Positions 9,886 to 53,993 of a DNA stretch of 64,000 nt are shown one piece after another. The notes below the pieces were generated by a model. It saw nothing but the letters and a program-made list of their open reading frames with translations, did not search any database and was not told where the DNA came from. Positions within the stretch are counted from its first letter, which is position 1, and each line of letters begins with the position of its first letter. Source of the stretch: Chitinophagaceae bacterium DXS (GTDB lineage: Bacteria; Bacteroidota; Bacteroidia; Chitinophagales; Chitinophagaceae); contig CP128386.1 of assembly GCA_030345135.1 (NCBI GenBank), positions 5,236,209-5,300,208 of the forward strand, in the 5' to 3' direction. Made by a program: the position numbers and the translations under genes.

Positions 9886-10315
9886 ATTTATGTCTGCCAT
9901 AAATGTTGTTTTTAAAGTACAGCATTGGCAAGCACTCAAATTGTGCCATAGTTATCCATAGGCTAAGTGTGAAACAGCTACAGGCCACATTGGGTAAACA
10001 GTCTACATTTCAAGAACGAATTGCATCCGGGCTACGCTGAATTATTTACCTCCTTTTTTATGGCAGGTATTTTGAGGCTCTTTTCTGACAGCGATTGGTA
10101 ATAACACTCTCTTCCCTGTGCCGCTTGATTTGCGCGATTATTTTGACGCAGTGTTGATTAATGTATAATGCTTTAAAAAGGTCTCCCTTTATCATTACAA
10201 CACATTCCGATCAGGCGGCATTTTTATTCATGTTAAATGAAATGGTATGTACATAAGTTTTCCGGATAACCACGGGCATCAAAAAAGCCCTTCGCCAGAA
10301 ACCGCCACAACAACA
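9886..10315. other. Intergenic region upstream of the ThDP enzyme gene
   Basis: This is a divergent gap between the SDR and the pyruvate-oxidase-like gene, so promoters for both should lie here. An AT-rich stretch around 10150-10180 (TTGATTAATGTATAATGC) resembles a promoter core but does not match the TTTG/TAnnTTTG pattern. A 23-codon in-frame extension upstream of the preferred ATG is polar and low in similarity to any fold. No other gene or repeat was seen. Confidence 0.4.
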
Positions 10316-12013
10316 ATGGCAACATTAAAGCAACAGACAGATTTCCAAGCTCAACCGGATGACACAACATCCGATATTATCGTTGATAAACTTATTGCCT
10401 GGAATGTTGAAGTTGTATTTGGCCTTGTTGGTGATGGCATTAATCCGTTGATGGAAGCGTTTCGCAAAAAGGAGGACAAGATCAGATTCATTACCGTAAG
10501 ACACGAAGAAGCAGCAGCATTTATGGCTTCCGGTTATTATAAATTCAGTGGCAAGCTTGGAGCCTGTATTGCAACAACAGGCCCCGGCGCTGTACATTTA
10601 CTCAACGGTCTTTACGATGCGGCGATGGAAGATGCGGCAGTCATAGCGATCACCGGTTCTACCTATCATGACCTTGCTGGAACATTTTACACACAGGAGA
10701 TTGATACCATTTCACTCTTTAAAAATATTGCAGTTTACAATCAGCAAATTACCGGGCCAACGCATGCGCAAACAATTGTAGACATTGCCTGCCGCACGGC
10801 ACTTTCCACTCCCGGTGTAACGCATATAACAGTTCCGGTAGACGTTCAGCAGATGCCGCTCGCCAAGGATAAACGATCCAGGAAATCAGGCATGCTCAAA
10901 GGCTCATCTACCTACCTGCCCAGGATAGTTGTGCCGGATGAACAGGAATTGGATATATTGGCAAGTATTCTTAATGATGGTGAATCAGTTATGATACTGG
11001 CCGGCCGCGGTGCGTTGAATGCCAGGGCCGAAATTGAACAGATCGCGGAAAAACTGGGCGCACCCGTAGCCAAAGCATTACTCGGCAAAGCGGTATTGCC
11101 CGATGATTCGCCTTACACAACAGGCGGCACCGGACGACTGGGAACATGGCCCTCGCAACAACTTATGAAGGAATGCGACACCCTTTTTATTATTGGAAGC
11201 ACCATGCCTCATCTCGAATATTATCCTGATCCGGAAAAAGCAAAAGCGGTACAGATCGATCGCAATCCCCAAAAGTTAGGCATGCGTTTTCCGATTGATG
11301 CGGGTGTAAGCGGAGATGTAAGGGCAACGCTTCAGGCCTTGATTCCAAGACTGAAAGATAATTCAGAGAAAAACTTTCTGAAGAAAGCACAACAGTTAAT
11401 GGCTGAATGGAAACAATGCATCAATAAAATGGAGATGCAAAAAACCTCACCCGTAAAACCGCCATTTCTTGTTGCGGAAGTAAGCAAGCTCCTGAAAGAA
11501 GATGCATTGATCTCAATAGACACAGGTGCACACACGGTTTTTACAGCAAGACATTTACAGATTACCGCACAACAGCAAATTGCAGTTTGCGGCAATCTCG
11601 CCAGCATGGCGCCGGGCCTGCCCTATGCAATTGCAGCGCAGATAGCTTTTCCTAAAAGTCAGTCTGTCGCAATGGTTGGTGATGGCAGCTTTACCATGCT
11701 GATGGGTGAATTGGCAACTGCCAGGATGTATAACCTGCCCGTAAAGATTATCATATTCAAAAACAACTCGCTGGCTATGGATAAGTTTGAACAGGAAGAG
11801 ATTGGCAATAAAGGTTTTGCAATACAACTTCAGCCTGTAGACTTTGCAAAAGTGGCTACAGCATTTGGCGTTGAAGGCTATGCCTGCAGCAATTCGGAAG
11901 AGTTGCCATCTGTATTGGAGAAGGCGTTTGCTTCAACCGAACCTGCAGTGATCGAAATATCCGTAGATCCCGACGAAGCACCGGATCCTCCTGAAAAGAT
12001 TATGAAGGGTTGA
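10316..12013 (+). CDS. Thiamine-diphosphate enzyme, pyruvate oxidase/quinone dehydrogenase-like
   Basis: This 565-residue three-domain ThDP enzyme belongs to the PoxB/pyruvate oxidase branch. The PYR domain has VVFGLVGDGINPLMEAF and RHEEAAAFMASGYYKF, whose Glu activates the cofactor. The central domain has GRGALNAR. The PP domain has VGDGSFTMLMGELATA and FKNN, the GDG-x24-NN cofactor motif. The reaction is probably oxidative decarboxylation of pyruvate to acetate or acetyl phosphate. The protein ends at VDPDEAPDPPEKIMKG and lacks the C-terminal lipid-binding tail of E. coli PoxB, so membrane activation may differ. The start at MATLKQQ is chosen over an ATG 23 codons upstream. Confidence 0.88.
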   Translation: MATLKQQTDFQAQPDDTTSDIIVDKLIAWNVEVVFGLVGDGINPLMEAFRKKEDKIRFITVRHEEAAAFMASGYYKFSGKLGACIATTGPGAVHLLNGLYDAAMEDAAVIAITGSTYHDLAGTFYTQEIDTISLFKNIAVYNQQITGPTHAQTIVDIACRTALSTPGVTHITVPVDVQQMPLAKDKRSRKSGMLKGSSTYLPRIVVPDEQELDILASILNDGESVMILAGRGALNARAEIEQIAEKLGAPVAKALLGKAVLPDDSPYTTGGTGRLGTWPSQQLMKECDTLFIIGSTMPHLEYYPDPEKAKAVQIDRNPQKLGMRFPIDAGVSGDVRATLQALIPRLKDNSEKNFLKKAQQLMAEWKQCINKMEMQKTSPVKPPFLVAEVSKLLKEDALISIDTGAHTVFTARHLQITAQQQIAVCGNLASMAPGLPYAIAAQIAFPKSQSVAMVGDGSFTMLMGELATARMYNLPVKIIIFKNNSLAMDKFEQEEIGNKGFAIQLQPVDFAKVATAFGVEGYACSNSEELPSVLEKAFASTEPAVIEISVDPDEAPDPPEKIMKG

Positions 12014-12172: not shown

Positions 12173-12244
12173 TGGTCTTACGGTCTTACGGTCTTACGGT
12201 CTTACGGTCTTACGGTCTTACTGTCTTACGGTCTTACTGTCTTA
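12173..12244. repeat. Octamer tandem repeat GGTCTTAC
   Basis: About nine head-to-tail copies of GGTCTTAC/TGTCTTAC end three bases inside the stop region of the leftward kinase-like gene. A related array, read as GTAAGACC/GTAAGACA, ends just before the stop of another leftward kinase gene at 33246. Both fill convergent gaps. Copy number of such short repeats usually varies between strains. Confidence 0.85.
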
Positions 12245-14608
12245 TTCCGGAAAAAAGCAATGAAAAACAGATCCTGCTTTCGCTTTGCTTTCAGCCACAA
12301 CAAACCCTCCGTGCAGCTCCATGATTTTCCGGCATATTGCGAGCCCAATACCCGAGCCTTTATATTTTGTTTTGTCGTGAATACGGTAAAACGTTTCAAA
12401 TATTTTTTCTGATTCTTCCTGCGGAAAGCCAATACCGTTATCTTCTATAGAAATTACCTTGTACCATGTATCCTGGAGTGCCAGTGAAACAGGTAATGAG
12501 ACTCCGGATCTGCGATCAGCTTTTACCTGTATGATGGGCGGGCGTTCGGGATGGCGGAACTTGAATGCGTTATCAAATAGCTGTCCGAACAGGATAACCA
12601 GTAATTGCGGAAATCCGGTTATTGTTGGAAGTGCTTGCGATTTTATCTCTCCCACTATATCATTTATTCTGTCCTGTATGCCGGCTATTGCAGTTGACAT
12701 CACGTCATTTAAGTTAACGGATTCAGCCAAATTTCCCGCTGCATGTATGCCGGAGAACATAACGATATCATCAGTCAGTAACTTAAGTTTCTGTATTGCA
12801 CTCTGCGCCCTGCGAACATTGGCTTTACCTGCATCACTTAAATGCTTCGCATCTTTTGTAACAATAAATTCCAGGTTGGTATACAACGTTTGCAGCGTTT
12901 CTCTATACTGACTCGCGATAAGTGAATTAAATGTATTCAGTTCAGCATGAAGAGACTCCAACTTACGGTTCTTTACCACAAGGCTTTTATTCAACTCATA
13001 AATCTTGTCTTCTGCCTTCTTCCTTTGCGTTACATCCATTAAAGTGCCTACAAGTTTTTCTCTTGTGTTTTCCTTTATTAGCTGACCGACTGCATATATA
13101 TACCGTATCTCTCCTTCTGCAGTAAGCACGCGATATTCGTAACTGGATCTAAATGCGTCTTCCTCAGTCGGCCGCGTCAACGCCTGTAACATAATACGTT
13201 CCCTGTCTTCAGGATGTATGGCTGCCAGGAATTTTTCCAGGCCTGGCTCAAAAGAAAACGGCTCGTAACCCAACAATTTAAAAGTATTTTCAGCCCATAT
13301 CACCTGGCCGGATGTAAGATCCCATTGCCAGTTTCCTATACTCGCAATCTTTTCAGCCTGCCTGTCAATTTCCAGTTGAATCCTGACCTTTTCTTCCGCC
13401 TGTCTTTTTTCGTGAATGTCCTGCGTAAAGGAAATCATCTGGGTTGGGTTACCTTCGGCATCTCTCTTAAATACTTTTGTGCGGGTATTAAACCAGCGTA
13501 AGCTTCCATCGGCCATAACCAGGCGAAAATCCAGATCCTTCACTTCGTGGTCCTTCATCTGGTTGTTGTTCCTGAAATCGATGAACGCTTGTAAATCGTC
13601 CTTGTAAACAATCCTGTTAAGCAGATCTTCCAGCGTCATTCCATACAATTCTGCCATTTCAAGTCCGATCACATCTTTCACGGTATGATTGGAGTAGATC
13701 AGCCGTTGAGAAACAATGTCAGAGATAGAAATAAAGTCGGGCGTTATTTTGGAGATTTCTTCAATTAAACGCTTACTTTCTTTCAATTCCTCTTCTGCTT
13801 TTTTTCGCGCCGTAATTACTTCTGTTGTAGTAATTACCAGGTCTCCCAACTTTACGGCGTTGATACTGAACCATTCATCAATATCTCCATCTGCATAATA
13901 TTTTTCAATACTGATGCCGGTATCTGAAGCCATTGCATCTTTCAACATACTGATCACGCCTGTTGCTTCAGCATTCGGAAAAGCTTCCGTATATAACTTA
14001 CCTATCGGCTGTTTGTTTTTAGACACAGCCAATGCCGCTGCATTCATCATAAGAATTTCGAAATCACTTACCTCCCCTTGCCCGTTGTACACAGCCTTAT
14101 GGACAGTGATACAATGCGGCGAAGAATTAAAAACCGTTTGTAAAAGGTTCTTGTTGTGTTGTAATTCCCGCTCTTTTTTTAGCAGCTCGGTTATCGAATC
14201 ATCCGGTACCGGCATTTCATTAACCGGTTGAAGCACAACTAATATTGTTTCGCCGGATTTTGTAATGGAACTTTTCAGCAATGAACTACCGTCGCTTTTG
14301 TTAATAACATGTGTAGTAGTAACATTACCCGGATCTTCTGCAAGTTGTGCCACTGCAAGAAAAAGCGGATCACTGTTGTAGCGGGAAAAAAGATGATCAA
14401 TGTTGCCATCATACGTTGATAACAAACGCTGGGCAACGCCGTTGTGATACAGTGATTGAAAGCCATTAACACGTTCATCCGTTTCCCGTAACGGCTTAAG
14501 AAAAAGAACGCCGACGGGTATGGAATTAAGCACTCCCTGAAAAACACGACTGCTGAGCACGGATTGCAGTTCTTCAAAATCTGTCACAGAAAAAAAATCA
14601 ACATTCAT
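12242..14608 (-). CDS. PAS-rich histidine-kinase homologue lacking the phospho-acceptor His
   Basis: This soluble protein of about 788 residues has four PAS-type sensor domains (roughly 10-140, 150-270, 280-400 and 410-530), a helical DHp-like region and a GHKL ATPase domain. PAS linkers end in the usual DIHEKRQAEEK and DVTQRKKAED. The ATPase boxes look intact: N box LFDNAFKF, G1 DNGIGF, F box FETFYR and G2 GSGIGLAICRK. At the place of the H box the sequence is ASQYRETLQT, so the phospho-acceptor His is Gln (codon CAG, about residue 567). It should bind ATP but cannot autophosphorylate at the canonical site. I start at MNVDFFSV. It is divergent from an intact kinase at 15230. Confidence 0.88.
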   Translation of the reverse strand: MNVDFFSVTDFEELQSVLSSRVFQGVLNSIPVGVLFLKPLRETDERVNGFQSLYHNGVAQRLLSTYDGNIDHLFSRYNSDPLFLAVAQLAEDPGNVTTTHVINKSDGSSLLKSSITKSGETILVVLQPVNEMPVPDDSITELLKKERELQHNKNLLQTVFNSSPHCITVHKAVYNGQGEVSDFEILMMNAAALAVSKNKQPIGKLYTEAFPNAEATGVISMLKDAMASDTGISIEKYYADGDIDEWFSINAVKLGDLVITTTEVITARKKAEEELKESKRLIEEISKITPDFISISDIVSQRLIYSNHTVKDVIGLEMAELYGMTLEDLLNRIVYKDDLQAFIDFRNNNQMKDHEVKDLDFRLVMADGSLRWFNTRTKVFKRDAEGNPTQMISFTQDIHEKRQAEEKVRIQLEIDRQAEKIASIGNWQWDLTSGQVIWAENTFKLLGYEPFSFEPGLEKFLAAIHPEDRERIMLQALTRPTEEDAFRSSYEYRVLTAEGEIRYIYAVGQLIKENTREKLVGTLMDVTQRKKAEDKIYELNKSLVVKNRKLESLHAELNTFNSLIASQYRETLQTLYTNLEFIVTKDAKHLSDAGKANVRRAQSAIQKLKLLTDDIVMFSGIHAAGNLAESVNLNDVMSTAIAGIQDRINDIVGEIKSQALPTITGFPQLLVILFGQLFDNAFKFRHPERPPIIQVKADRRSGVSLPVSLALQDTWYKVISIEDNGIGFPQEESEKIFETFYRIHDKTKYKGSGIGLAICRKIMELHGGFVVAESKAKAGSVFHCFFPE

Positions 14609-14937
14609 ATACCAAATGCACGCACAGGTTTGCCGCATACATAGCTCTTTACAATTAATGTATCTGGTTTCTTAACATATAATTTTCAGGAAAAAACGTA
14701 CCAGCAAAACAGGTTGTTTTGTTGAGTAACCGCAAGGAGTGTATGTATCTGGTTCTGCGTAAAGCGTGAAGCCAAAAATATAGAAAAACACAAATGATAA
14801 AAAAAAGTGCATGATTTTTTTTGTAACGGTGAGCTTTTTCAGTTGCAATCTGCTTATGCAGACGTTTGTTCAATTGCATCAGAATCAAAAAATGCCTTGC
14901 CCGGAAAAAGCCCGAATACTATTTTTTCTATGTTTTC

Positions 14938-14968
14938 TTGGTTAATACAAAAAAAATAGATAGATTTG
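14938..14968 (+). promoter_or_regulatory. Candidate Bacteroidota-type promoter
   Basis: TTG at 14938-14940 lies 20 bp upstream of TAGATTTG at 14961-14968. This fits the sigma-ABfr consensus, TTTG-N19/20-TAnnTTTG, with transcription expected to begin a few bases after 14970. It is the only promoter in the window where both elements look acceptable. No coding start lies within 250 bp downstream, which points to an RNA product or a long leader. Confidence 0.45.
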
Positions 14969-14974
14969 TTAATA

Positions 14975-15212
14975 CAGGCTGTAGCTCATTTTGCAGCTTT
15001 GATAATACATCCCAATCAACTTTCCCGTCGTTGCTCAGACACACTTGCAACAATTTTCAACGGCAATCTATTTAAAGGAAATAATATAAAAACTGGTCGT
15101 GCTATTTAACGATTGCGGGAATAACTCCATTGAAGGAAAAGGCATATCCAGATAGTCACATATCAACATAGCAGAACAGAGCCGCTCCTTCATGGCAGCG
15201 GCTTTTTGTTTT
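14975..15212 (+). ncRNA. Candidate small RNA or kinase-gene leader RNA (about 240 nt)
   Basis: The segment runs from a plausible promoter to a strong intrinsic terminator and holds no convincing reading frame. Internal structure includes GCTGTAGCTCATTTTGCAGC near its 5' end. The terminator ends 18 bp before the ATG of the histidine kinase at 15230. The RNA is therefore either an independent small RNA or a leader whose terminator is conditionally read through into the kinase gene. I do not recognise an Rfam family in it (not an obvious 6S, SRP, tmRNA or RNase P RNA). The 5' end is a guess from promoter spacing. Confidence 0.4.
15180..15212 (+). terminator. Intrinsic terminator upstream of a kinase gene
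   Basis: A perfect 7-bp GC-rich stem, AGCCGCT (15180-15186) with AGCGGCT (15197-15203), has a 10-nt loop and is followed directly by TTTTGTTTT. It is a classical rho-independent terminator on the plus strand. No plus-strand protein gene lies between it and the ThDP gene 3.2 kb upstream, so it must serve an RNA or act as an attenuator. Confidence 0.8.
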
Positions 15213-15229
15213 AACAATTAATTTATCTG

Positions 15230-16294
15230 ATGAAAAAACATTTACTCATAACAGAAAATAAAATCAATTCCACAGGCATTCCTGTAAATGCCGCGGAGAA
15301 ATCAAACATAACGACTGAACTTGAAAATAATATTTTGCAAGCCGCTCCCCTATTGAATGTCACAAATTACGTACCTGTAATTGCTTGTGCCAGTTCTTCT
15401 GAACCTGTTTGCGACGGCGAAACTTCTACCGTCAACAAAATAAAGAAAATGAAAAATGTTGTATTAGCCGGTCACGATAAAACTTCGTTTGTCACAAACA
15501 GCGAAACGGAAAAATCCCCCGTGGATTCTTACAAAGACACTATTCGGCTTTTGACGCTTGAACTGGCGGAACAACGGAGAATTGCAAAAGATTGCCAGGA
15601 TATGCTGCAAAGAAAAAAAGATATTTTGTGTATTGCGAGCCATGAACTTAAAACGCCTGTAACTGCTATCCAGGGTTATGTGGACCTGTTGATTTTGCAG
15701 CAAAAAGATCTCACGGATGAATTTCTCCAAAGCTCGTTAAGGACAATAAAGCAACAGGTAAAAAATCTTACTTCCTTAATCAATAACCTGCTGGTTTCTT
15801 CTGAAAAAAAGCTTGACGAAACTGCATTTGGCAATTATAACGAGCTGATCCCTGTAGATATGCTTTTGGCTGAAATAACGAACTTTTTACAACCAACAAT
15901 CAAGCACAGGCTCATTCAGGTAGGGCAGTGCAGTGCTTCAATACTTGCGAATAAATGTAGCGTTAACAGGATTTTGCTGAACATTATTTCCAATGCTGTA
16001 AAATATTCGCCTGATGCAGACACAATTATCATTTCCTGTAAAGAAACGCCCGCGGAAGTTGTAATTGGAATTACAGATTTTGGGATCGGAATTGCACCTG
16101 AGCATCAAAAAAAAATATTTACAAAGTTTTACCGCGTAAAAAGTGCTGGCAGGCAGGACCCTCATTATCTGAACCTGGGTGTGGGCCTTTTTACTGCTAC
16201 AGAGCTGGTAAAAAAAATGAATGGAAAAATTTGGGTTGAAAGTGAGCCCTGCAAGGGTTCTACATTTTATATAAGTATTCCTAAAGCAAAATAA
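15230..16294 (+). CDS. Cytosolic sensor histidine kinase
   Basis: The 354-residue protein has no membrane segment and no clear PAS or GAF domain. Its first 100 residues are polar and unassigned. A coiled-coil linker (about 100-125) leads to the H box IASHELKTPVTAIQGY with H138. The ATPase domain shows the N box NIISNAVKYSP, G1 DFGIGIAPEH, the F box FTKFYR and G2 LGVGLFTATELV. The kinase is therefore probably active, with its signal entering through partners. It follows an intrinsic terminator by 18 bp and is divergent from the His-less kinase homologue at 12242. No cognate response regulator is adjacent. Confidence 0.9.
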   Translation: MKKHLLITENKINSTGIPVNAAEKSNITTELENNILQAAPLLNVTNYVPVIACASSSEPVCDGETSTVNKIKKMKNVVLAGHDKTSFVTNSETEKSPVDSYKDTIRLLTLELAEQRRIAKDCQDMLQRKKDILCIASHELKTPVTAIQGYVDLLILQQKDLTDEFLQSSLRTIKQQVKNLTSLINNLLVSSEKKLDETAFGNYNELIPVDMLLAEITNFLQPTIKHRLIQVGQCSASILANKCSVNRILLNIISNAVKYSPDADTIIISCKETPAEVVIGITDFGIGIAPEHQKKIFTKFYRVKSAGRQDPHYLNLGVGLFTATELVKKMNGKIWVESEPCKGSTFYISIPKAK

Positions 16295-16330
16295 GCGCTT
16301 TAATGCAATACGCAGGCGGCCATAAATTAA

Positions 16331-16600
16331 ATGCCTTGCATGTATATAGAACTTTCTTATCTGGAAAAGAAAATACGCGCCAATGTTATTTACAATTTCA
16401 GGCAGATGACGCGTATTATCCTGGTGAGGTTTGATAACCTGCCGGATGGCAAGGACAATGAGTTGTTTCTGTTTTTTGAAAATAACCAGTGGATTGCACC
16501 CTCAGACTTTAAAGAGTTCTATCCGGAAATGCTTGAGCAGATCATGCAAAAGCTAAAGAGTGTTTTTAACGAATTTCTTTTGACAAAGAAGACAATATAA
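16331..16600 (+). CDS. Small hypothetical protein
   Basis: This 89-residue protein of mixed alpha/beta character has strands such as IILVRFDN and ELFLFFENNQW, then a helical end rich in acidic and Lys residues. There is no signal peptide or membrane helix. It lies 36 bp after one kinase and 146 bp before another on the same strand, so it may be co-transcribed with them. No family recognised. The start could also be the Met three codons in. Confidence 0.55.
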   Translation: MPCMYIELSYLEKKIRANVIYNFRQMTRIILVRFDNLPDGKDNELFLFFENNQWIAPSDFKEFYPEMLEQIMQKLKSVFNEFLLTKKTI

Positions 16601-16746
16601 GCTTTAACAATTCAACACTCCTTCCATAGACCGCAAGAACCATTTTAACTCAAATTACATCTGCTCCTTTGAAAAATGAGCTATTGGCAAAAAGTGTTTT
16701 TCAACATTGCTGAAAATTTTAAAACAACCATTTATTAAAACAGAAC

Positions 16747-18762
16747 ATGCAACGAACAGTTTCAAATGGTAAGGAAGGTTATACGGATAAGTTTTTTTTA
16801 CCCAGGGATATCTCAATACAAAATCTGATAGATTACATGCCTATTGCCATTTATGCGTGCAGCCTGTCAGGACACATTATCTACTACAATAAGGCTGCGG
16901 AAAAACTTTGGGGATATAAACCCAAAGCCGGTGAAGACATGTGGTCTGGCTCGGCGAAATTATTCCTGCCTGACGGAGTTCCTCTTCCTATGGATAAATG
17001 GCCAATGACCATTGCTATACAACAAGGCATTTATTTGGAGGAGGAAGAAGTAGTTATTCAACAACCCGGCGGAACAAAGTTAAATGTGCTGGAACATCCT
17101 ATGCCGGTGTTTGACAGCGACGGAAAACTGTTATGCATAATCAATGTGTTGCTTGATGTAACGGAACAAAGAAAAAGCGAAACAAAGCAGGCAATGCTGG
17201 CTGCCATAGTAGAATCATCAGATGACGCTATTGTAAGCAAGTCGCTGAACGGCATCATCACCAGCTGGAATTTTGGCGCGCAGGAAATGTTTGGTTACGA
17301 GGAACAGGAAATAATTGGCAAACCGATTACTACCATTATTCCAGAGCAATACCGGATGGATGAACTGATGATATTGAACAAGATAAGAAACAATGAACAC
17401 GTTGAGCACTTTGAAACCTACCGGATAACAAAAGATGGCACATTAATTCCGGTGTCCCTTACCATTTCACCGATAACGGACAAAAGAGGAAATATCATCG
17501 GCGCATCAAAAATAGCCAGGAACATCAGTAAACAAAAAGAAGCGGAAAAAGCACTTCAGCACCATGCAGAAAACCTGGAAATAATGAACGGCATGGGCAA
17601 GGTGATTTCTCAAACACTGGATATTGATGTAATCCTGCAAACAGTGGCCGACTCCACCACGCGCCTTACGGGAGCTGCAATTGGTGCCTTCTTTTACAAT
17701 ACGGTAAATGACAAAAATGAGCCATACATGCTTTGCAGGCTAAGCGGGGCTGCCAAAGAAGCATTCGAAAATTTTGCCATACCGCGCAGCACGGCTGTTT
17801 TCAGCAGCACTTTTAACGGCGGTGCTACAATAAGATCTGACGATATTACGCACGATGAAAGATACGCCAGAAATATGCCTTTCAACGGAATGCCGGAGGG
17901 GCATTTACCTGTTGTGAGCTACCTTGCAGTACCGGTAGTGTCAAAAAACGGAAAAGTGACCGGTGGATTATTTTTCGGCCACCCTCAACCCGGCCGGTTT
18001 ACGAAGGAACATGAGGACCTTGTTTCTGCTATTGCCTTACATGCAGCGATAGCACTCGATAATGCCAAGCTGTATGCAGAAGTAACGAGACTGAGTGATA
18101 AAAAAGACGAATTCATCAGCCTTGCTAGCCATGAATTAAAAACGCCTATAACCAGCCTGAGCGGATTTCTTCAACTGATCGAGGAATCGCTCGATGATGG
18201 TGACGAAAATAAAAAATTCATGAAGATCGCCCTGGCACAGGTGAAAAAACTTTCGGATCTCATTTCTGATCTGCTTGATGTATCAAAAGTTAAAGCCGGC
18301 AAGCTGCCTTTGTCATTCAGCCATTTTGATCTTGTGCAACTAACAAAGGAAGTAGTTACCCAATTTCAGTATTCGGTGAGATCGCATGCTGTTCAATTGG
18401 ATTGCAAACTGGAAAAGGTCATGGTACACGGCGACAGACAACGCATCGAGCAGGTGATCATTAACCTGCTTGCCAATGCGGTTAAATATTCTCCCGGGGC
18501 AGCCGAGGTCAAAGTACTGGTAACAGGAAATAATGCAACTGCCTCTGTGTCCGTTCAGGATTTTGGAATTGGCATAGCGCCGGAATTACATCAGCATATA
18601 TTTTCACGTTTTTTCCGGATTGAAGATGAAGCCAACAAACCAGGTCTTGGAATTGGTCTTTATATCTGCAAGGAAATTATACAACGTCACAGCGGCCGCC
18701 TCTGGTTAAGCAGCGTGCCTTCTGTAGGATCAATCTTTGGATTTGATATACCAGCTGCGTAA
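16747..18762 (+). CDS. PAS-PAS-GAF hybrid-input histidine kinase
   Basis: The 671-residue soluble kinase has PAS 1 (about 20-140, ending VTEQRKSE) and PAS 2 (about 145-270, ending ISKQKEAEKA). A GAF domain follows (about 290-440; VSYLAVPVVSKNGKVTGGLFFG). The DHp H box is LASHELKTPITSL with H462. The ATPase domain shows LLANAVKYSP, DFGIGIAPEL, FSRFFRIED and LGIGLYICKEII. All kinase motifs are intact. Its stop codon is only 3 bp from the stop of the converging His-less kinase homogue, so the two transcripts must overlap at their 3' ends. No adjacent regulator gene. Confidence 0.92.
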   Translation: MQRTVSNGKEGYTDKFFLPRDISIQNLIDYMPIAIYACSLSGHIIYYNKAAEKLWGYKPKAGEDMWSGSAKLFLPDGVPLPMDKWPMTIAIQQGIYLEEEEVVIQQPGGTKLNVLEHPMPVFDSDGKLLCIINVLLDVTEQRKSETKQAMLAAIVESSDDAIVSKSLNGIITSWNFGAQEMFGYEEQEIIGKPITTIIPEQYRMDELMILNKIRNNEHVEHFETYRITKDGTLIPVSLTISPITDKRGNIIGASKIARNISKQKEAEKALQHHAENLEIMNGMGKVISQTLDIDVILQTVADSTTRLTGAAIGAFFYNTVNDKNEPYMLCRLSGAAKEAFENFAIPRSTAVFSSTFNGGATIRSDDITHDERYARNMPFNGMPEGHLPVVSYLAVPVVSKNGKVTGGLFFGHPQPGRFTKEHEDLVSAIALHAAIALDNAKLYAEVTRLSDKKDEFISLASHELKTPITSLSGFLQLIEESLDDGDENKKFMKIALAQVKKLSDLISDLLDVSKVKAGKLPLSFSHFDLVQLTKEVVTQFQYSVRSHAVQLDCKLEKVMVHGDRQRIEQVIINLLANAVKYSPGAAEVKVLVTGNNATASVSVQDFGIGIAPELHQHIFSRFFRIEDEANKPGLGIGLYICKEIIQRHSGRLWLSSVPSVGSIFGFDIPAA

Positions 18763-18765
18763 TTT

Positions 18766-19965
18766 TCAGGCAGGGCCATTTTCTCCTGAAGTGGCCTGGC
18801 TTCCGCCATCTTCATCCATTAAGCTAAGGCAGCAATGAAAGGCAGATCCTTTGCCCGGCTGGCTTTCTACTTCTATAAAACCGCCATGTGCTTCAACAAT
18901 CTTCCGGCTTATTGTGAGGCCTATGCCGGAGCCTGGGTATTCTTTGCGGGGATGGATCTTTTCGAACAACATAAAGATCTTATCAGCATCTTCCTGCGCA
19001 AAACCAATACCGTTATCCCTAACTGTTATACACAAATACGCTTTCAGGTTTGTTCCATCTCCTCCTTTATCCTGTTGGCGTTCCACATTAGCAGCAGATA
19101 TGGTTATCTTTGGAATGTTGCCATCCTGCTGAAATTTGAGGGCGTTGTCAATAAGATTATAGAGCAGATATTGCAACATTTGCCTCGAGCCATACATAAC
19201 AGGCAGATCATGTGCTTCAATAACCGCCTGCCTGGCTGCTATTTTCTGACGCAGCGATTCCAATACGCGTTGCAATACTTCATTCAGATCAAATCTTTCG
19301 AGTTCATTTCCTATGCTGTTGGCTGCAGAAAAAGCGAGTATGTCATCCAGCAAAAGATTCATTTTAGTTAGTGAAGACTGCATGCGGCGCAAACCGGCTT
19401 TTCCATGATTGGTAAGATTGGCTCCTTCACTCCGCACCAGTAGTTCCAGCGAAGTATACAGTTTCTTAACGGGTTCTTTAAGATCAGTACTTGTTATTGA
19501 TGTAAACGTTGCCAGTTCGGCCGTTGTTTTTTCCAGTTGTTGATACTGTTTTTTCAACAACTCATTCAGCTTGTGCAACTGTTGTTCAGCTTTTATCCTG
19601 TGCGCCACATCATGCATAATATTCATCACCCCTATCCGCTTACCGTCTTCATCCTCAAGCGGAATAAAATGATTCTCGTAATAATCACGGTTGAATTTTC
19701 CCTCGGCGGCTGGTATAAAAGACTTTATTCCATCCATTGCAAGCCTGAAACCGCTCATTATCTCTTCATCCTGTTCTAATTGAGGAAACACTTTCAGCAG
19801 GTTCTTCCCCAGCACCTCATCACGTAATATTCCCGATAAAATTTCTGTTGTTTTATTCCAGGCAATTATTTTCCAATCAGTATCTATGGCCATCAACCTG
19901 TCTATGCTGGCATCATTCATCATTTCAGCAATGTTGGCACTGATTTCATTCATTTTATCTAACAT
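18766..19965 (-). CDS. PAS histidine-kinase homologue lacking the phospho-acceptor His
   Basis: This protein of about 399 residues has one N-terminal PAS domain (about 10-125; AIDTDWKIIAWNKTTEILSG), a helical DHp-like segment and a GHKL ATPase domain. The H box reads SITSTDLKEPVKK, so His is replaced by Thr (about residue 160), while the rest of the box stays close to the SHDLKEPLR form. ATPase boxes look complete: NLIDNALKF, DNGIGFAQED, FMLFEKIH and GSGIGLTISRKI. The DHp and ATPase halves are clearly paralogous to the protein at 12242. The start at MLDKMNEIS is preferred over an ATG 16 codons upstream. Confidence 0.87.
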   Translation of the reverse strand: MLDKMNEISANIAEMMNDASIDRLMAIDTDWKIIAWNKTTEILSGILRDEVLGKNLLKVFPQLEQDEEIMSGFRLAMDGIKSFIPAAEGKFNRDYYENHFIPLEDEDGKRIGVMNIMHDVAHRIKAEQQLHKLNELLKKQYQQLEKTTAELATFTSITSTDLKEPVKKLYTSLELLVRSEGANLTNHGKAGLRRMQSSLTKMNLLLDDILAFSAANSIGNELERFDLNEVLQRVLESLRQKIAARQAVIEAHDLPVMYGSRQMLQYLLYNLIDNALKFQQDGNIPKITISAANVERQQDKGGDGTNLKAYLCITVRDNGIGFAQEDADKIFMLFEKIHPRKEYPGSGIGLTISRKIVEAHGGFIEVESQPGKGSAFHCCLSLMDEDGGSQATSGENGPA

Positions 19966-21910: not shown

Positions 21911-22051
21911 CATGAACAATGATGCGTTATGCGGGTCTGGCTGATAAATGCTGCGTAGGATAAAAATGGGCTAACATACTCATTGCAGCTTGTGTTTGAA
22001 CGACACAATTTTATTTACTAAATGCTCATACTTTACAGAGCTTTGAACATT

Positions 22052-25000
22052 ATGAAATCGTCTGATCAATCTAACGAAGGAAACGAATCCGAAATCAACA
22101 AGCCGGAACGGCATGGCTTTCTAATAGCAGGTGTAGGCGCCTCCGCGGGCGGCATTCTTGCACTGAAAAATTTCTTCGCGCATGTTCCTGCCGACTCGGG
22201 CATTGCATATGTGGTGATATTGCACTTATCTCCTGATCATGACAGCAAGCTTGCAGAGGTATTGCAACAAACGGCAAAGATCCCCGTATCCCAGGTTACT
22301 GAAAAGACAACCGTAAAACCGAACAGGGTATATGTTGTACCGCCCAACCAGCATCTGTCAATGAAGAATGACGAGATAATCGTTAGTCAGAATATGCAGG
22401 TGGCTGACCGCAGGGCGCCCATTGATATATTTTTCAGAACACTGGCAGAATCCCAGGGGGCCAACGCCGTATGTGTAGTTTTATCGGGTACCGGTGCCAA
22501 TGGGTCTATGGGCCTTAAGCATATAAAAGAAAAGGGAGGTGCCGCTTTTGTTCAGAACCCGAGAGAGGCTGAGTTTAATGAAATGCCCCGTAACGCCATT
22601 TCAACCGATATGGTGGATGCCATTTTACCTGTTGCAGAAATTCCAGGGAAAATACTGGCCTACAAAAATAATCTGGGCACGGTTCATATTTCAATTGATG
22701 CAGGCAAACGGCCGGAAGACCAGCAGAATGCGTTAAGAGAGATTTTTACACAGTTAAGAATAAAAACAGGTCACGATTTTACCAATTACAAACGCCCAAC
22801 ACTCATCCGCCGGATAGAGCGCCGTATAACGGTAAAAAACCTGCCGGACCTGCAATCGTATGCCACATACATTCAGCAACATCCGGAAGAAACAACTGCC
22901 TTGTTAAAAGATCTGCTCATTTCTGTGACAAATTTTTTCCGTGATAAAAAAGCATTTGAAGCCATTCAGGCCGAAGTTCTTCCACCGATCATCCATCAGA
23001 AAAACGCCGAAGAACAGGTAAGGATTTGGGTAGCAGGATGCGCAACGGGCGAAGAGGCGTACTCAATGGCTATCATGTGTGCTGAGCAAACGCTGAATGT
23101 TATTGATGCTCCCAAGATCCAGATCTTTGCAACGGATATAGATGAGGATGCAATAGCGCATGCACGTGAGGGTTTTTATACCATTAACGATGCGGCAGAT
23201 GTATCAGCCGAAAGGCTAAGACGTTTCTTTAATAAGGAGGGCGACGGTTACCGGGTTAGAAGGGAAATAAGGGAAATGGTGCTTTTTGCCAATCACAATT
23301 TTATTAAGGATCCTCCGTTCTCGCACCTGGACCTGGTGGCTTGCCGCAACGTGCTGATCTATCTGAACCGGTCCGCCCAGGAGCGTGTACTGGAAACATT
23401 TCACTTTGCACTGAACCCTGAAGGTTACCTGTTTCTTGGCACATCCGAATCTGCCGATGGAATGAATAACCTTTACACTATTTATAGCAGGGAGCATCAC
23501 ATCTTCAAAAGCAGGCAGGTAAGCATGAGGGCTTATCCTGTACCGGACTCCGTACCAATGCTCCGCATTGAACAATCGACTGCACTTGAAAGTGCTAAAG
23601 AAAAGAATCACAGAACACTGGAACGCATTACATATGGAGATCTGCATCTGCGATTGTTGGAACAGTATGCACCACCCTCTGTAGTGATCAATGAAGAATA
23701 TGACATCGTTCACCTCTCCGACCGGATTTCACCTTATCTGCAACTCGGTGGCGGGGAGCCTTCACAAAACCTGTTGAAATTAGTACGACAGGAATTAAGG
23801 CTTGAATTGCGTTCAGCATTGTACCAGGCCATTCAGCAAAGAACAGCCGTTGATGCAAAAGGCCTTCGCGTAAAAATTGAAAACCGGATTGAAACCATCA
23901 ATCTGCATGTCCGGCCCGTGCTGCGTGATAAAGATATAGCAAGGGGCTTCATACTGGTAATTTTTGAAAAAACTGAAGAGGAACCCGATAACAAAGAAAT
24001 AGTCATATCATCAGAGCTGGCAGTATCGCAACACCTGGAAGAAGAACTGATGCGGTTGAAATCCCAGCTCCGCAGTTCCAATGAACAACACGAGTTTCAG
24101 GCTGAAGAATTAAAGGCATCAAATGAAGAGTTGCAGGCAATGAATGAGGAGTTGCGTTCTGCAGCGGAAGAACTGGAAACAAGCAAGGAAGAGCTGCAAT
24201 CCATGAACGAAGAATTGAGGACGGTAAACCAGGAATTGAAGGTAAAGATTGAAGAAACCAGCTTTACCAGCAATAACCTGCAAAACCTGATCAATTCAGC
24301 AAACATAGGAACGATCTTCCTGGACAGAAGCCTGCGAATAGCGCTTTTCACCCCTGCTATACGTGAGATCTTCAATCTTATTCCTGCTGATTATGGCAGG
24401 CCTCTTTCCGATATAACACACAAGTTAGAATACAATTACCTGCTGGATGATGCTGATACCGTGTTGGAAAAATTGAATACCATTGAACGGGAGGTAACTA
24501 CTGCAGATGGCCGCGATTATATTATGCGTGTACTGCCCTATCGGACCACTGAAGATCAGATTAACGGCGTAGTGATCACTTTTATTGATATACATACCCG
24601 CAAGCAGGCGGAAGAAGCGTTAAGGCAGTCTGAAAGAAAATACCGGACACTGTTCAACTCTATTGATGAAGGCTTTAGTACAGTGGAAGTGATCTTTAAT
24701 GAAACACAAACACCTGTTGACTACCGGTTTATTGTTGTAAATCCGGCGTTTGAAAGACAAACCGGGTTAAATAATGCGGTTGGAAAAAGAATTCGTGAGA
24801 TTGCTCCCCTGCACGAAAGTTTTTGGTTTGAAATATTCGGCAAAGTAGCCCTGACCGGCGAACCGCAACGATTTGAAAATCATTCGCGGGAACAGGGACA
24901 CTATTATGATGTGTATGCCTTCCGCATAGGAGAACCATCGGAGCGGCTTGTGGGAGTTTTGTTTAATGACATTACCGAACGCAAAAAAGCAGAAAAAGTT

Positions 25001-27055
25001 TTACATAACAGTGCTGTTCACCACACCTTTTTATTAAAGCTGAACGATGCCTTGCGTAATGTGACTGATGCCGGCGAAATAATGTCGAAATCAGCCATGC
25101 TGCTGGGGAACCACCTGCTTGCAGACAATGTGGGCTATGCTGAAATGGATACTAAAGGAGAGCAATTAACCATTCAAAACGATTGGGTGTACGAGCAAAT
25201 GCCAAGCCTGGCAGGAACTTATAACCTGAACAATTTCGGCGAACTGGGAAAAAAATTTCAATCAGGCCACACTATCATTAGCAGGGAAGCATCCCTGGAT
25301 GACCGCAAAGATCTTGCCGCCGGTTTTCAATCTACTCAGCTGGCAACAAGTGTTATTACTCCTTTGAATAAAAGTGGCAAACTGGTTTCAATTCTGTTTG
25401 TACATCAAAAAAATGCCAGGGAGTGGACGGAAGAAGAAGTTAAAATAATTGAAGAGGTCGCCAACCGCACATGGCTTTTTGTTAAACAGGCCCGTACGGA
25501 AGAAAACCTTCGCCAAAGTGAGGCGCAAACAGCATTTTTATTAAAGTTTAATGACAGGGTGCGCGGTGCAGACCCTCATACCGTGTTATCTACTGCATTG
25601 CAAATGCTTGGGGAACACCTGAATGTATCACGGGTCGGTTATGGCGAAGTGAATAAAGATCAACAGCATGTAAGTGTTGAAATGGATTGGACCAACGGTA
25701 GCCTGCCCCATATGGAAGGAGCCGTAGACATTTCAGCATTCAGTTCTTCGGCACTGGAAAAGTTCCATTCAAATCTTTCATGGAGCAGGGAAAATGGCGT
25801 CGTTTCCAGGGCTACAAATGAGGTTGCCTTGCCTGAAGTATCGGACGCCACTGCGGCCGCATATGTTCCGGTTGTAAAGAAGGGAAGCTGGGTTGCACTG
25901 CTATTTGTCCATCATGCCCAACCCAGAGCCTGGACCTCGTTTGAAACAGATTTGATGAGGGAGGTAGCGGACCGCACCATGAGCGCCATTGAAAGAGCAA
26001 AAATTCAGACAGAACTGATTGAAAGTGAAGAGCGCGTGAGGCTCGCGACGGATGTTGCAAAAATGTTCTCCTGGGAATACGATTTTAAAACAAAGACCAT
26101 CAAGTATTCTGAAAATACTGCTCGTATTACCGGGTTGCAGCCCCACGAAAATTTTGACGAAAATATCCGGTTCATTCACCGGGATGATCAATCTCTGATT
26201 ACAAAAAACATTGAGTTAGCCATCAGAACAAATGGCAGGTTCGATTTTGAGATAAGACTTAAGCGCGGCGAAGCACGATCTGAATGGTACAGGATTTCCG
26301 GCGCTGTGATTAAGGACAGGACGGACAAACCTCTTCGCGCGGTGGGCGTAGCTCAAAACATAACGGAACAAAAAGCATTACAACAACAAAAAGATGATTT
26401 TATAGGTATTGCCAGCCATGAATTAAAAACGCCTGTAACAAGCATTAAAACTTATACCGAGGTATTGCAGGAATTGTTTGAAAAGGCAAAGGACATGGAA
26501 AAAGCAGACCTGATGCATAAGCTGGATGAGCAGGTGGATCGTCTTACCGAATTGATAAAAGCCTTACTCGACACAACCAAGATTGCGGAAGGGCAATTAC
26601 CTCTCATTAAAGAAAGACTTGATCTGAATACTGTATTAAGTGAAGAAATTCATGAGCTTACTGCAGTGGCAAACAAGCACCACATTGTATTTAATCCGGG
26701 CAAAATAAAACCAGTTGAGATAGACCGTGAGCGCATTAACCAGGTTATCAGCAATCTTGTAACAAATGCAATTAAATACTCGCCTGAAGGCAGTGAAATT
26801 GTAGTTACATCGGAGGAATATCAAAAAGGCGTAAAAGTGACCATTCGTGATCAAGGAATAGGTATTGCGCCGGAGCTTCTTGAAAAGGTATTTGAACGGT
26901 TTTTCCGTGTAAATAATTCACAGGTTAACACGTTTCCGGGGATGGGACTGGGACTTTATATCACGGCCGGGATAATCAACAGGCATAATGGTACGGTTCA
27001 TGTGGAAAGTAAAGTTGGGGAAGGTTCCATATTTTACTTTACACTGCCCTATTAA
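22052..27055 (+). CDS. CheB-CheR-PAS-GAF-histidine kinase fusion
   Basis: This soluble 1667-residue multidomain protein has, in order: CheB methylesterase (about 20-205), CheR methyltransferase (about 225-490), a PAS-like segment (about 535-650), and a long coiled coil built on EELQAMNEELR-type heptads (about 655-760). Two PAS domains, two tandem GAF domains (about 990-1320), another PAS and a histidine kinase follow. CheB has Ser31 (GASAGG) and His58 (LHLSPDH), but the catalytic Asp of the GMGxDG motif is Asn150 (GTGANGS). CheR has WVAGCATGEEAYS and CRNVLIYLN. The kinase has H1456 (ASHELKTPVTSI) and complete N/G boxes. The ATG at MKSSDQ is preferred over one ten codons upstream. The next gene is a receiver protein 15 bp away. 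Confidence 0.93.
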   Translation: MKSSDQSNEGNESEINKPERHGFLIAGVGASAGGILALKNFFAHVPADSGIAYVVILHLSPDHDSKLAEVLQQTAKIPVSQVTEKTTVKPNRVYVVPPNQHLSMKNDEIIVSQNMQVADRRAPIDIFFRTLAESQGANAVCVVLSGTGANGSMGLKHIKEKGGAAFVQNPREAEFNEMPRNAISTDMVDAILPVAEIPGKILAYKNNLGTVHISIDAGKRPEDQQNALREIFTQLRIKTGHDFTNYKRPTLIRRIERRITVKNLPDLQSYATYIQQHPEETTALLKDLLISVTNFFRDKKAFEAIQAEVLPPIIHQKNAEEQVRIWVAGCATGEEAYSMAIMCAEQTLNVIDAPKIQIFATDIDEDAIAHAREGFYTINDAADVSAERLRRFFNKEGDGYRVRREIREMVLFANHNFIKDPPFSHLDLVACRNVLIYLNRSAQERVLETFHFALNPEGYLFLGTSESADGMNNLYTIYSREHHIFKSRQVSMRAYPVPDSVPMLRIEQSTALESAKEKNHRTLERITYGDLHLRLLEQYAPPSVVINEEYDIVHLSDRISPYLQLGGGEPSQNLLKLVRQELRLELRSALYQAIQQRTAVDAKGLRVKIENRIETINLHVRPVLRDKDIARGFILVIFEKTEEEPDNKEIVISSELAVSQHLEEELMRLKSQLRSSNEQHEFQAEELKASNEELQAMNEELRSAAEELETSKEELQSMNEELRTVNQELKVKIEETSFTSNNLQNLINSANIGTIFLDRSLRIALFTPAIREIFNLIPADYGRPLSDITHKLEYNYLLDDADTVLEKLNTIEREVTTADGRDYIMRVLPYRTTEDQINGVVITFIDIHTRKQAEEALRQSERKYRTLFNSIDEGFSTVEVIFNETQTPVDYRFIVVNPAFERQTGLNNAVGKRIREIAPLHESFWFEIFGKVALTGEPQRFENHSREQGHYYDVYAFRIGEPSERLVGVLFNDITERKKAEKVLHNSAVHHTFLLKLNDALRNVTDAGEIMSKSAMLLGNHLLADNVGYAEMDTKGEQLTIQNDWVYEQMPSLAGTYNLNNFGELGKKFQSGHTIISREASLDDRKDLAAGFQSTQLATSVITPLNKSGKLVSILFVHQKNAREWTEEEVKIIEEVANRTWLFVKQARTEENLRQSEAQTAFLLKFNDRVRGADPHTVLSTALQMLGEHLNVSRVGYGEVNKDQQHVSVEMDWTNGSLPHMEGAVDISAFSSSALEKFHSNLSWSRENGVVSRATNEVALPEVSDATAAAYVPVVKKGSWVALLFVHHAQPRAWTSFETDLMREVADRTMSAIERAKIQTELIESEERVRLATDVAKMFSWEYDFKTKTIKYSENTARITGLQPHENFDENIRFIHRDDQSLITKNIELAIRTNGRFDFEIRLKRGEARSEWYRISGAVIKDRTDKPLRAVGVAQNITEQKALQQQKDDFIGIASHELKTPVTSIKTYTEVLQELFEKAKDMEKADLMHKLDEQVDRLTELIKALLDTTKIAEGQLPLIKERLDLNTVLSEEIHELTAVANKHHIVFNPGKIKPVEIDRERINQVISNLVTNAIKYSPEGSEIVVTSEEYQKGVKVTIRDQGIGIAPELLEKVFERFFRVNNSQVNTFPGMGLGLYITAGIINRHNGTVHVESKVGEGSIFYFTLPY

Positions 27056-27070
27056 GCCAGGAAACGCCTT

Positions 27071-27424
27071 ATGATACACATTGCTATTGCAGAAGATAAT
27101 CCCGGAATTCAACAGGCCTTACAACTATGCCTGGAGCAGTCCGGTTTCAGGGTCTCTATTTACGGTAACGGAGAACACCTGATAAAAGACGATCTGGATC
27201 TGCCAGACTTATTTATTCTTGACAAACAACTTTCCGGAATAAATGGGCTTGATATATGCCGTCATTTAAAACTTAAAGCGACTACCAGGAACATTCCTGT
27301 GATCATGCTTTCCGCCGATCCATATATAGCCGGACTGGCCAGAACGGCGGGCGCGGATGACTATCTTGAAAAACCATTTACCATTCAAAGACTTCGCGAA
27401 ATGATAGCCAAGCATACTGCCTGA
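27071..27424 (+). CDS. Single-domain response regulator
   Basis: The 117-residue CheY-type receiver has the acidic pocket E8/D9 (IAEDN), phospho-acceptor D51 (LFILDKQLSGI), the switch Ser in VIMLSAD and the conserved Lys in LEKPF. There is no output domain. It lies 15 bp after the CheB-CheR-kinase gene and is its likely phosphorylation partner. Output would be through protein contact, or through feedback on the kinase. Confidence 0.92.
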   Translation: MIHIAIAEDNPGIQQALQLCLEQSGFRVSIYGNGEHLIKDDLDLPDLFILDKQLSGINGLDICRHLKLKATTRNIPVIMLSADPYIAGLARTAGADDYLEKPFTIQRLREMIAKHTA

Positions 27425-27697
27425 TATTAGTATTTCCCCATTTTTATTAAGTCATTGATGTCGCAGGTGAAACATTCTGATGCGGAAGTTTAACTCAACA
27501 TTTTTACAACAACTGCCACTTAATAATTATCATGCTCCATTGGCTAAGTTTTTGAGGTAATTACACTACCTGACAGCAGATCAATGGCTTGATTACCCCC
27601 ATTCTTTAAGAAGCAATTACCCATCTTACGCAACATACAAAGCCTGGTAAAAATTGGATGCTGAGTGGATTTTCAGGCATGGTTTAAATGTTATGAC

Positions 27698-28756
27698 ATG
27701 GCAAAAAAAAATATTATCGTAATCGGTGCTTCTGCAGGGGGATATGACGCTCTTCTCAAACTTCTTGGAGGATTGCAGGAAGATATTGATGCTGCTATTT
27801 TTATTGTATGGCACATGTCCCCTGAAATAAAAGGGTTCTTGCCAAATGCAATTAACAAAGTAACAAAATTGATTGCAGCAAATGCAACAGACAGGGAGGC
27901 AATAACAACAGGTCACATTTACGTAGCTCCTCCGGACAGGCACCTTATTGTAGAGCATGGCCGCATGAGAATAACAAAGGGACCAAAAGAAAACAGGTTC
28001 AGGCCTGCCGTCGATCCGCTTTTCCGGTCTGCGGCATATAGCTATGGCCCACGTGTTATTGGCATAATATTATCCGGAGCATTAGATGATGGTACCGCGG
28101 GGCTGTGGGCAATAAAAGAACAGGGCGGCACAGCCATTGTACAGGATCCTAATGAAGCTGAAGTAAAGTCTATGCCTGAAAATGCGCTTCAGCAGGTTAA
28201 CGTTGATTATTGTTTGCCGGTGTCAGAAATGCCTGAACTGCTATACCGGTTAACACAGGAATCAGCAGCAGTTGATAACGGTAACCAGACAATCAATCCG
28301 ATCATGGAACGTGAAGTACAGATTGCAACAGAGGGAGAAGCTGCGTTAACGAATGTGACTCCTATTGGAGTACCGACAAATATTACCTGCCCGGAATGCA
28401 GTGGAGTACTTTCCGCAATTATCGAAAATGACCGCGTACGTTACCGGTGTCACACGGGTCATGCTTTTTCGGCAGACAGCCTGTTAGCTTCTGTTGGTGA
28501 AACCATTGAGAAAAATTTATGGCAGGTGGTAAGAAGCATTAAAGAAAGCATTTTCCTACTCAACCACATCGGAGATCATTTTGCGGAAGCCAACAATCCG
28601 CGCCTTGCCGCACTTTACTTCAACAAAAGCAAAGAAGCTTCCAAACGTGTGAAATTGGTTCAGCAAGCCTTGCAAACACATGAGCACATGACAACGGAAT
28701 CAATCGAATACGAAGCCGAAAAACCTAAGGGCTCACCTGTCGGCAGCAATGAATAA
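27698..28756 (+). CDS. Stand-alone CheB-type methylesterase with C-terminal zinc-ribbon-like region
   Basis: This 352-residue protein lacks a receiver domain. The CheB catalytic set is complete: Ser12 (GASAGG), His39 (VWHMSPE) and Asp131 (SGALDDGT). After the catalytic domain (about 1-185) comes a region with CPECSG and RCHTGHAFSAD, a probable metal-binding knuckle, then a helical tail. It demethylates or deamidates protein glutamates. No chemoreceptor, CheA or CheW is in the window, so the target is probably another signalling protein. The ATG at MAKKNIIV is chosen over a GTG eleven codons upstream. Confidence 0.88.
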   Translation: MAKKNIIVIGASAGGYDALLKLLGGLQEDIDAAIFIVWHMSPEIKGFLPNAINKVTKLIAANATDREAITTGHIYVAPPDRHLIVEHGRMRITKGPKENRFRPAVDPLFRSAAYSYGPRVIGIILSGALDDGTAGLWAIKEQGGTAIVQDPNEAEVKSMPENALQQVNVDYCLPVSEMPELLYRLTQESAAVDNGNQTINPIMEREVQIATEGEAALTNVTPIGVPTNITCPECSGVLSAIIENDRVRYRCHTGHAFSADSLLASVGETIEKNLWQVVRSIKESIFLLNHIGDHFAEANNPRLAALYFNKSKEASKRVKLVQQALQTHEHMTTESIEYEAEKPKGSPVGSNE

Positions 28757-52070: not shown

Positions 52071-52119
52071 GTTGGTTATTTATTATCTAAAATTTCAGTA
52101 TGCTTAAGTTGTGTGTATT

Positions 52120-53952: not shown

Positions 53953-53993
53953 TGGTATTGTTTTTTCCTTTGTTCTTCAAAACCTTTTATAAA

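Follow-up and report, generated by a model that had tools for sequence, protein, structure and literature searches.

Two histidine-kinase homologues without a phospho-acceptor histidine in a Chitinophagaceae genome: candidate ATP-dependent regulators of single-domain receivers

Few bacterial pseudo-histidine kinases are understood. The best case is DivL of Caulobacter crescentus, a PAS-containing histidine kinase (HK) homologue without acceptor His, which binds ATP only weakly. Itself neither a kinase nor a phosphatase, DivL controls CckA and binds the phosphorylated single-domain receiver DivK~P (PMC4211667). The bacteriophytochrome DrBphP has no kinase activity but dephosphorylates its own response regulator, for which it depends on ATP (PMC8292422). 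In CheA3/CheA4 of Rhodobacter sphaeroides the ATP-binding and acceptor functions reside on different proteins, which leaves an ATP site with no acceptor of its own. Here we describe two genes of Chitinophagaceae bacterium DXS, located on the 64,000-nucleotide stretch 5,236,209 to 5,300,208 of contig CP128386.1 (hereafter the window), whose products, P0001 and P0002, are HK homologues that have lost the acceptor His and kept the ATP site. The genes are probably not broken: their products would be dedicated regulators, most likely ones that switch off small receiver proteins in an ATP-dependent manner.

The two genes and their domains are listed below in window coordinates; residues of the DHp domain are numbered from the His site, H+1 being the next one.

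18766-19965, minus strand: His-less HK homologue 1 (P0002), 399 aa, PAS, degenerate DHp and CA, clade A (open reading frame call, Pfam, tree)
19597-19911, minus strand: PAS domain of P0002, residues 19-123 (PAS_4, 50.5 bits)
19315-19518, minus strand: degenerate DHp of P0002, His replaced by Thr160; H+1 Asp161, H+4 Glu164, H+5 Pro165; clade-invariant Tyr170 and Glu174
19486-19488, minus strand: codon ACT, Thr160, the phospho-acceptor position of P0002
18823-19185, minus strand: HATPase_c of P0002 (2e-22), N, G1, F and G2 boxes intact, landmark residues invariant
12242-14608, minus strand: His-less HK homologue 2 (P0001), 788 aa, three Pfam PAS domains, degenerate DHp and CA, clade B
12743-12946, minus strand: degenerate DHp of P0001, His replaced by Ser566 and H+1 by Gln567; H+4 Glu570 kept, H+5 Pro replaced by Thr571; clade-invariant Tyr576 and Glu580
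12911-12913, minus strand: codon AGT, Ser566, the phospho-acceptor position of P0001
12248-12604, minus strand: HATPase_c of P0001, intact (7.8e-20)

An earlier note, made from the sequence alone, had pointed to these two reading frames as HK homologues. Both exist, on the minus strand, and the plus-strand translations at the same positions are riddled with stops. The note had placed Gln (P0001) and Thr (P0002) at the His position. The Thr is indeed Thr160, but alignment with relatives pairs the canonical 'ASHDLQEPL' with 'IASQYRETL' of P0001, so that the His site is Ser566 and the Gln lies one residue on, at H+1. The Pfam HisKA domain is absent from P0001 and stays under the cut-off in P0002 (19.5 bits versus 26.9 needed). 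Both proteins are HK homologues without a phospho-acceptor, that is, they do not have the His of a functional HisKA kinase. As the note had said, the landmark residues of the N, G1, F and G2 boxes are present in both proteins, and their DHp and ATPase halves are related (37% identity across 303 aa of linker, DHp and CA).

Sequencing error, which the note had named as a possible refutation, is very unlikely, because both codons are at least two substitutions away from CAC/CAT and every other kinase homologue found in the genome, 33 in all, has His (28 by alignment, 5 by H-box motif); His-less relatives were moreover found in more than 30 other genomes. The source genome is complete, on a single contig. 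A scan of genome contigs with P0002 as query returned one distant match only. The note's other caveat, a conserved His nearby, finds no backing either: the best alternative DHp column has His in 10 of 35 His-less rows, and an invariant His downstream of the G2 box sits in the CA domain, not in DHp.

AlphaFold2 models have a PAS-DHp-CA fold for P0002 (mean pLDDT 83) and a DHp-CA fold for the core of P0001 (pLDDT 81). With the P0002 model, Foldseek matched histidine kinases, phytochromes (including plant phytochrome A) and DivL. Among solved kinases, the closest in sequence are the HK domain of RpBphP2 (8f71) and DrBphP (8sgk/8avv), at 6.6e-32 and 4.9e-22, and in the NCBIfam scan all models of specific kinases stayed under the cut-off. 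P0001 and P0002 appear to be members of the bacteriophytochrome-type (HDLxEP) HisKA lineage, with which they have the DHp-CA fold and the Glu at H+4 in common. They differ from it in that they carry PAS domains, no bilin photosensory module being found, and in that DrBphP keeps its acceptor H532, with His533 at H+1. The structure of DivL (4q20) matches P0002 in fold but only weakly in sequence (4.5e-12); phytochrome HK domains outscore it (114 versus 49 bits), which is not what orthology to DivL would give. DivL belongs to another lineage, its His became Tyr whereas here it became Asn, Thr, Ser, Ala, Gly, Lys or Arg, and its weak ATP binding contrasts with the invariant ATP-site residues found here.

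Relatives were searched in the family (396 genomes in the last search), the order and the phylum, and about 40 were found above a score gap. In a tree built without the His column, the His-less members fell into two conserved clades whose ATP boxes are intact, the check that the note had proposed: clade A (22 rows, support 100/99), which includes P0002, and clade B (16 rows, 100/96), which includes P0001. Together they span many genera and reach about 10% of the family's sampled genomes. As to a single origin of the His loss, support for the grouping of A with B is 75/23, and at least four state changes at the His site are required. Since they fall in two anciently split clades, P0001 and P0002 are not recent duplicates. 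The note's suggestion that the two copies work as a pair, or as a mutual heterodimer sink, does not survive as a general mechanism: among the sampled genomes A and B occur together in this one only, and neither protein has a His. Outside the family, the order and phylum searches gave a sole relative, which bears His (L179). Adjoining this His-bearing relative of clade A is a CheB-CheR-PAS-HATPase protein (L179:10256-13459, plus strand, in another family of the same class) with Asn at the His site (ASNNLLEPVNKIYMF), apparently a separate loss of His.

We then compared which residues drifted and which stayed, in the 38 core members (clades A and B) or in a set of 42 that adds four basal relatives. 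In the core, the His site is occupied by Asn (23), Thr (5), His (4), Ser (2) and one each of Ala, Arg, Gly and Lys, and in the larger set by Asn (23), His (7), Thr (5), Ser (2) and others (5). Where His is present in the core, H+1 is Asn in three members out of four, the exception being L176, which combines His with an acid. The sequences of genus g86 (L159, L169 and L172) carry His although they nest in His-less clade A, and the residue after it is Asn; this is probably a reversion, one that leaves the kinase base unrestored. H+1 is itself variable (D 16, N 10, E 8, K 6 and Q 2 in the set of 42), and H+4 is mostly Glu (E 32, D 5 and H 1 in the core). The landmark residues N, D, G, G, F, G and L of the ATP site are present in 42 of 42, and some secondary positions in 38 to 41. 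In the last beta strand of CA (C378 of P0002), the Cys of 'FxCYFP' is found in 40 of 42, where most canonical relatives have Ile or Val.

Site rates were estimated in the 38 clade members and in 38 canonical relatives and are given as percentiles. The His site stands at the 50th percentile in the clades versus the 2nd in canonical relatives and H+1 at the 54th versus the 3rd; H+4 stands at the 27th versus the 14th, and the ATP-site residues at the 0-6th versus the 0-8th. Two DHp residues, both invariant in the clades, slowed down: the Tyr at H+10 from the 41st percentile to the 4th, and the Glu at H+14 from the 66th to the 2nd. The dN/dS ratios of measurable close pairs are about 0.06-0.16, rough values since synonymous change is near saturation. 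Because site rates shift, new DHp residues are fixed and dN/dS is low, the His-less clades represent an altered function under selection, not decay, in agreement with the selected pseudo-kinase role that the note had favoured.

What might this function be? In HisKA proteins, H+1 is needed for kinase activity only and H+4 for phosphatase activity only (PMC3510030). In CrdS of the same study, the H371A mutant keeps phosphatase activity (response regulator~P half-life of 2.6 min, versus 53.5 without enzyme) and E372A behaves as wild type (PMC3510030). The DrBphP phosphatase needs ATP and the Glu at H+4, where Gln is tolerated and Asp, Thr and Asn are not (PMC8292422). At H+4, where phosphatases have Thr or Asn, or Glu or Gln in the phytochrome type, P0002 and P0001 have Glu164 and Glu570. 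The residues kept (H+4 Glu, ATP site) and lost (His, H+1 acid) match the published division between kinase and phosphatase, most cleanly in clade A, and an ATP-dependent phosphatase of the DrBphP type would explain why the ATP site is retained without an acceptor.

The reading we favour, with a probability of about 0.42, is that these proteins would be kinase-dead, ATP-dependent phosphatases of a single-domain receiver that gets its phosphate from a separate, neighbouring His-bearing kinase of the SHELKTP type. Autophosphorylation would have been lost, but the proteins would still dimerise, bind ATP and probably dock a receiver; an intracellular signal at PAS and ATP in CA would set the conformation of DHp, which would bind the phosphorylated receiver and dephosphorylate it via the Glu at H+4. 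ATP binding, dimerisation, docking and phosphatase action are all inferred. Phosphatase action is more convincing for clade A, which keeps the H+5 Pro, than for clade B, which may only bind and report the phospho-receiver, because this Pro is gone from it and Asp stands at H+4 in several of its members. A family-wide version is more doubtful: phytochrome-type kinases would have dropped their His and, with H+10 Tyr, H+14 Glu and two residues of helix 2, acquired a new DHp surface to become ATP-dependent receiver phosphatases or phospho-readers, each lineage with its own receiver.

Neighbouring genes of the window that bear on this proposal are the following.

15230-16294, plus strand: canonical HK, His present (SHELKTP), between both pseudo-kinase genes
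16747-18762, plus strand: canonical PAS/GAF HK, His present (SHELKTP), possible partner; convergent with the P0002 gene and 3 bp away from its stop
22022-27055, plus strand: CheB-CheR-PAS-GAF HK, His present (IASHELKTPVTS); kinase-core relatives at 12 of 37 clade loci, 0 of 19 and 0 of 20 control loci
27071-27421, plus strand: single-domain receiver of type RR1, candidate partner (PF00072, 70 bits; tree 96/98)
27665-28756, plus strand: CheB methylesterase, recurrent neighbour (PF01339, 193 bits)

Neighbourhoods were counted at 37 clade loci, 19 loci of canonical relatives and 20 random loci. RR1 was found near 15, 0 and 0 of these respectively, a second receiver type, RR2, near 20, 2 and 0, the SHELKTP-type kinase near 12, 0 and 0, and CheB near 10, 3 and 0. 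A gene that we take to be YciE-like recurs near 13, 3 and 0 (at L155, L156, L159, L163-L167, L169, L179, L183, L186 and L187), hinting at a stress-response locus. As RR2 queries were taken from clade loci, the receiver tree is a better test than the RR2 counts. RR1 forms a group of 19 rows there (96/98) that includes the window receiver, the others being neighbours of clade-A and basal His-bearing proteins, one clade-B locus and one other locus; kinase - RR1 - pseudo-kinase is among the common gene orders. RR2 forms 20 rows (81/88), all from pseudo-kinase loci in that tree, with invariant phosphorylation residues (DDD, D, S, K), and its members beside A and beside B mostly cluster apart. Among 11 extra RR2-like loci, only L272 (His-less) and L275 (His-bearing) have a relative beside the receiver. 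The L272 member (L272:6156-7358, plus strand, genome G077; ISSSNIKQP) is an extra His-less protein below the score cut-off, in which Ser replaces the His, H+1 is Asn and H+4 is Gln. Upstream of it are genes for a kinase-like protein of 1352 aa and for a short receiver, and past it, on the opposite strand, is one for an RR2-like receiver. In the DXS genome, we infer that the partner is the RR1 receiver at 27071-27421. A receiver-directed role fits residue pattern and gene neighbourhood better than the ATP-gated regulator suggested by the note.

Several observations weigh against a receiver phosphatase. The acceptor His enhances phosphatase activity, so that its loss should carry a cost. Clade B is without the H+5 Pro, and mutation of this residue in CrdS (P376A) strongly lowers phosphatase activity (PMC3510030); several clade B members have at H+4 the Asp that abolishes DrBphP phosphatase. 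The Lys at H+8, present in 38 of 38 canonical relatives, is variable in the clades, which could mean that docking was lost instead of re-specified. A single-domain receiver also lies within 400 bp of 14 of the 38 canonical relatives; receiver adjacency alone is therefore probably ancestral and is weakened as proof of partnership, which is why receiver lineages were compared instead. RR2 is not exclusive to pseudo-kinases, RR2-like receivers occurring without one nearby, and it was rejected as the partner here, since none was found in this genome (best score 60 bits, versus at least 101 for placed RR2 members). The RR1 candidate lies about 7 kb off, on the other strand.

The main rival, which we consider unlikely, is a phospho-reader similar to DivL that would bind the phosphorylated single-domain receiver unchanged and allosterically switch a neighbouring canonical kinase. 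The example of DivL itself, the proximity here of genes for a pseudo-HK, a single-domain receiver and a canonical HK, and the loss in clade B of the H+5 Pro and partly of the H+4 Glu all suit such a reader, as do the newly fixed H+10 Tyr and H+14 Glu, which could form a re-tuned binding surface or lock DHp. However, the ATPase domain of DivL is dispensable, whereas ATP-site residues are among the slowest-evolving ones here, and the H+4 Glu is largely kept although a pure reader has no need of it. A conserved ATP site without acceptor, with canonical HKs encoded next door, would also be expected of a split kinase whose CA phosphorylates the His of a partner, as CheA4 of the CheA family does on CheA3; Rhodobacter has such split kinases, and the share of HKs with this potential was estimated at up to 1.7% (PMC3591291). 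We nevertheless find this quite improbable: the H+1 acid is relaxed here as well, the neighbouring HKs carry their own HATPase domains, clade A and B proteins, both without His, cannot serve each other, and no partner with a matching DHp was found, the nearest other kinases of the genome having only about 24-35% core identity. No acceptor-bearing partner without a working ATP site was seen among the window neighbours, the genome not having been exhaustively searched for HKs with a dead CA.

Ser/Thr kinase action has been proposed for phytochromes and is known for the mitochondrial PDK/BCKDK family. A Ser/Thr protein kinase with HK fold and an external protein substrate would be consistent with the intact ATP site, with Asn, Thr or Ser being frequent at the His site and with plant phytochrome A being among the Foldseek matches, yet it is highly improbable, as there is no conserved substrate gene, no recurrent substitute for the catalytic acid at H+1, and too varied a set of residues at the His site for a new acceptor. 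Neutral decay or sequencing error, which the loss of a catalytic residue might suggest if taken alone, is hardly tenable given the distance of both codons from His, the low dN/dS, the full-length reading frames, the invariant ATP site and two well-supported clades spread across many genera.

Other genes of the window include a thiamine-pyrophosphate enzyme with all three TPP-enzyme domains (10247-12013, plus strand), convergent with the P0001 gene, and a 2976-aa protein (54975-63905, minus strand) that combines Calx-beta and Ig-like domains and has at its C-terminus a CHU_C type IX secretion signal domain, beside PorP/SprF-like, OmpA-PD40 and Calx-beta genes (49620-54917).

Literature searches, with most subscription journals outside their coverage, found no paper on such a His-less group. 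These findings suggest that, for His-less HK homologues, an annotation as sensor histidine kinase should not be taken to mean kinase activity. In many natural proteins here, the ATP site and the residue presumed to serve the phosphatase are retained while the acceptor and the kinase base are not, which would amount to a separation of the two HK activities by natural selection. They would provide ready-made kinase-minus proteins for testing the part of ATP in receiver dephosphorylation.

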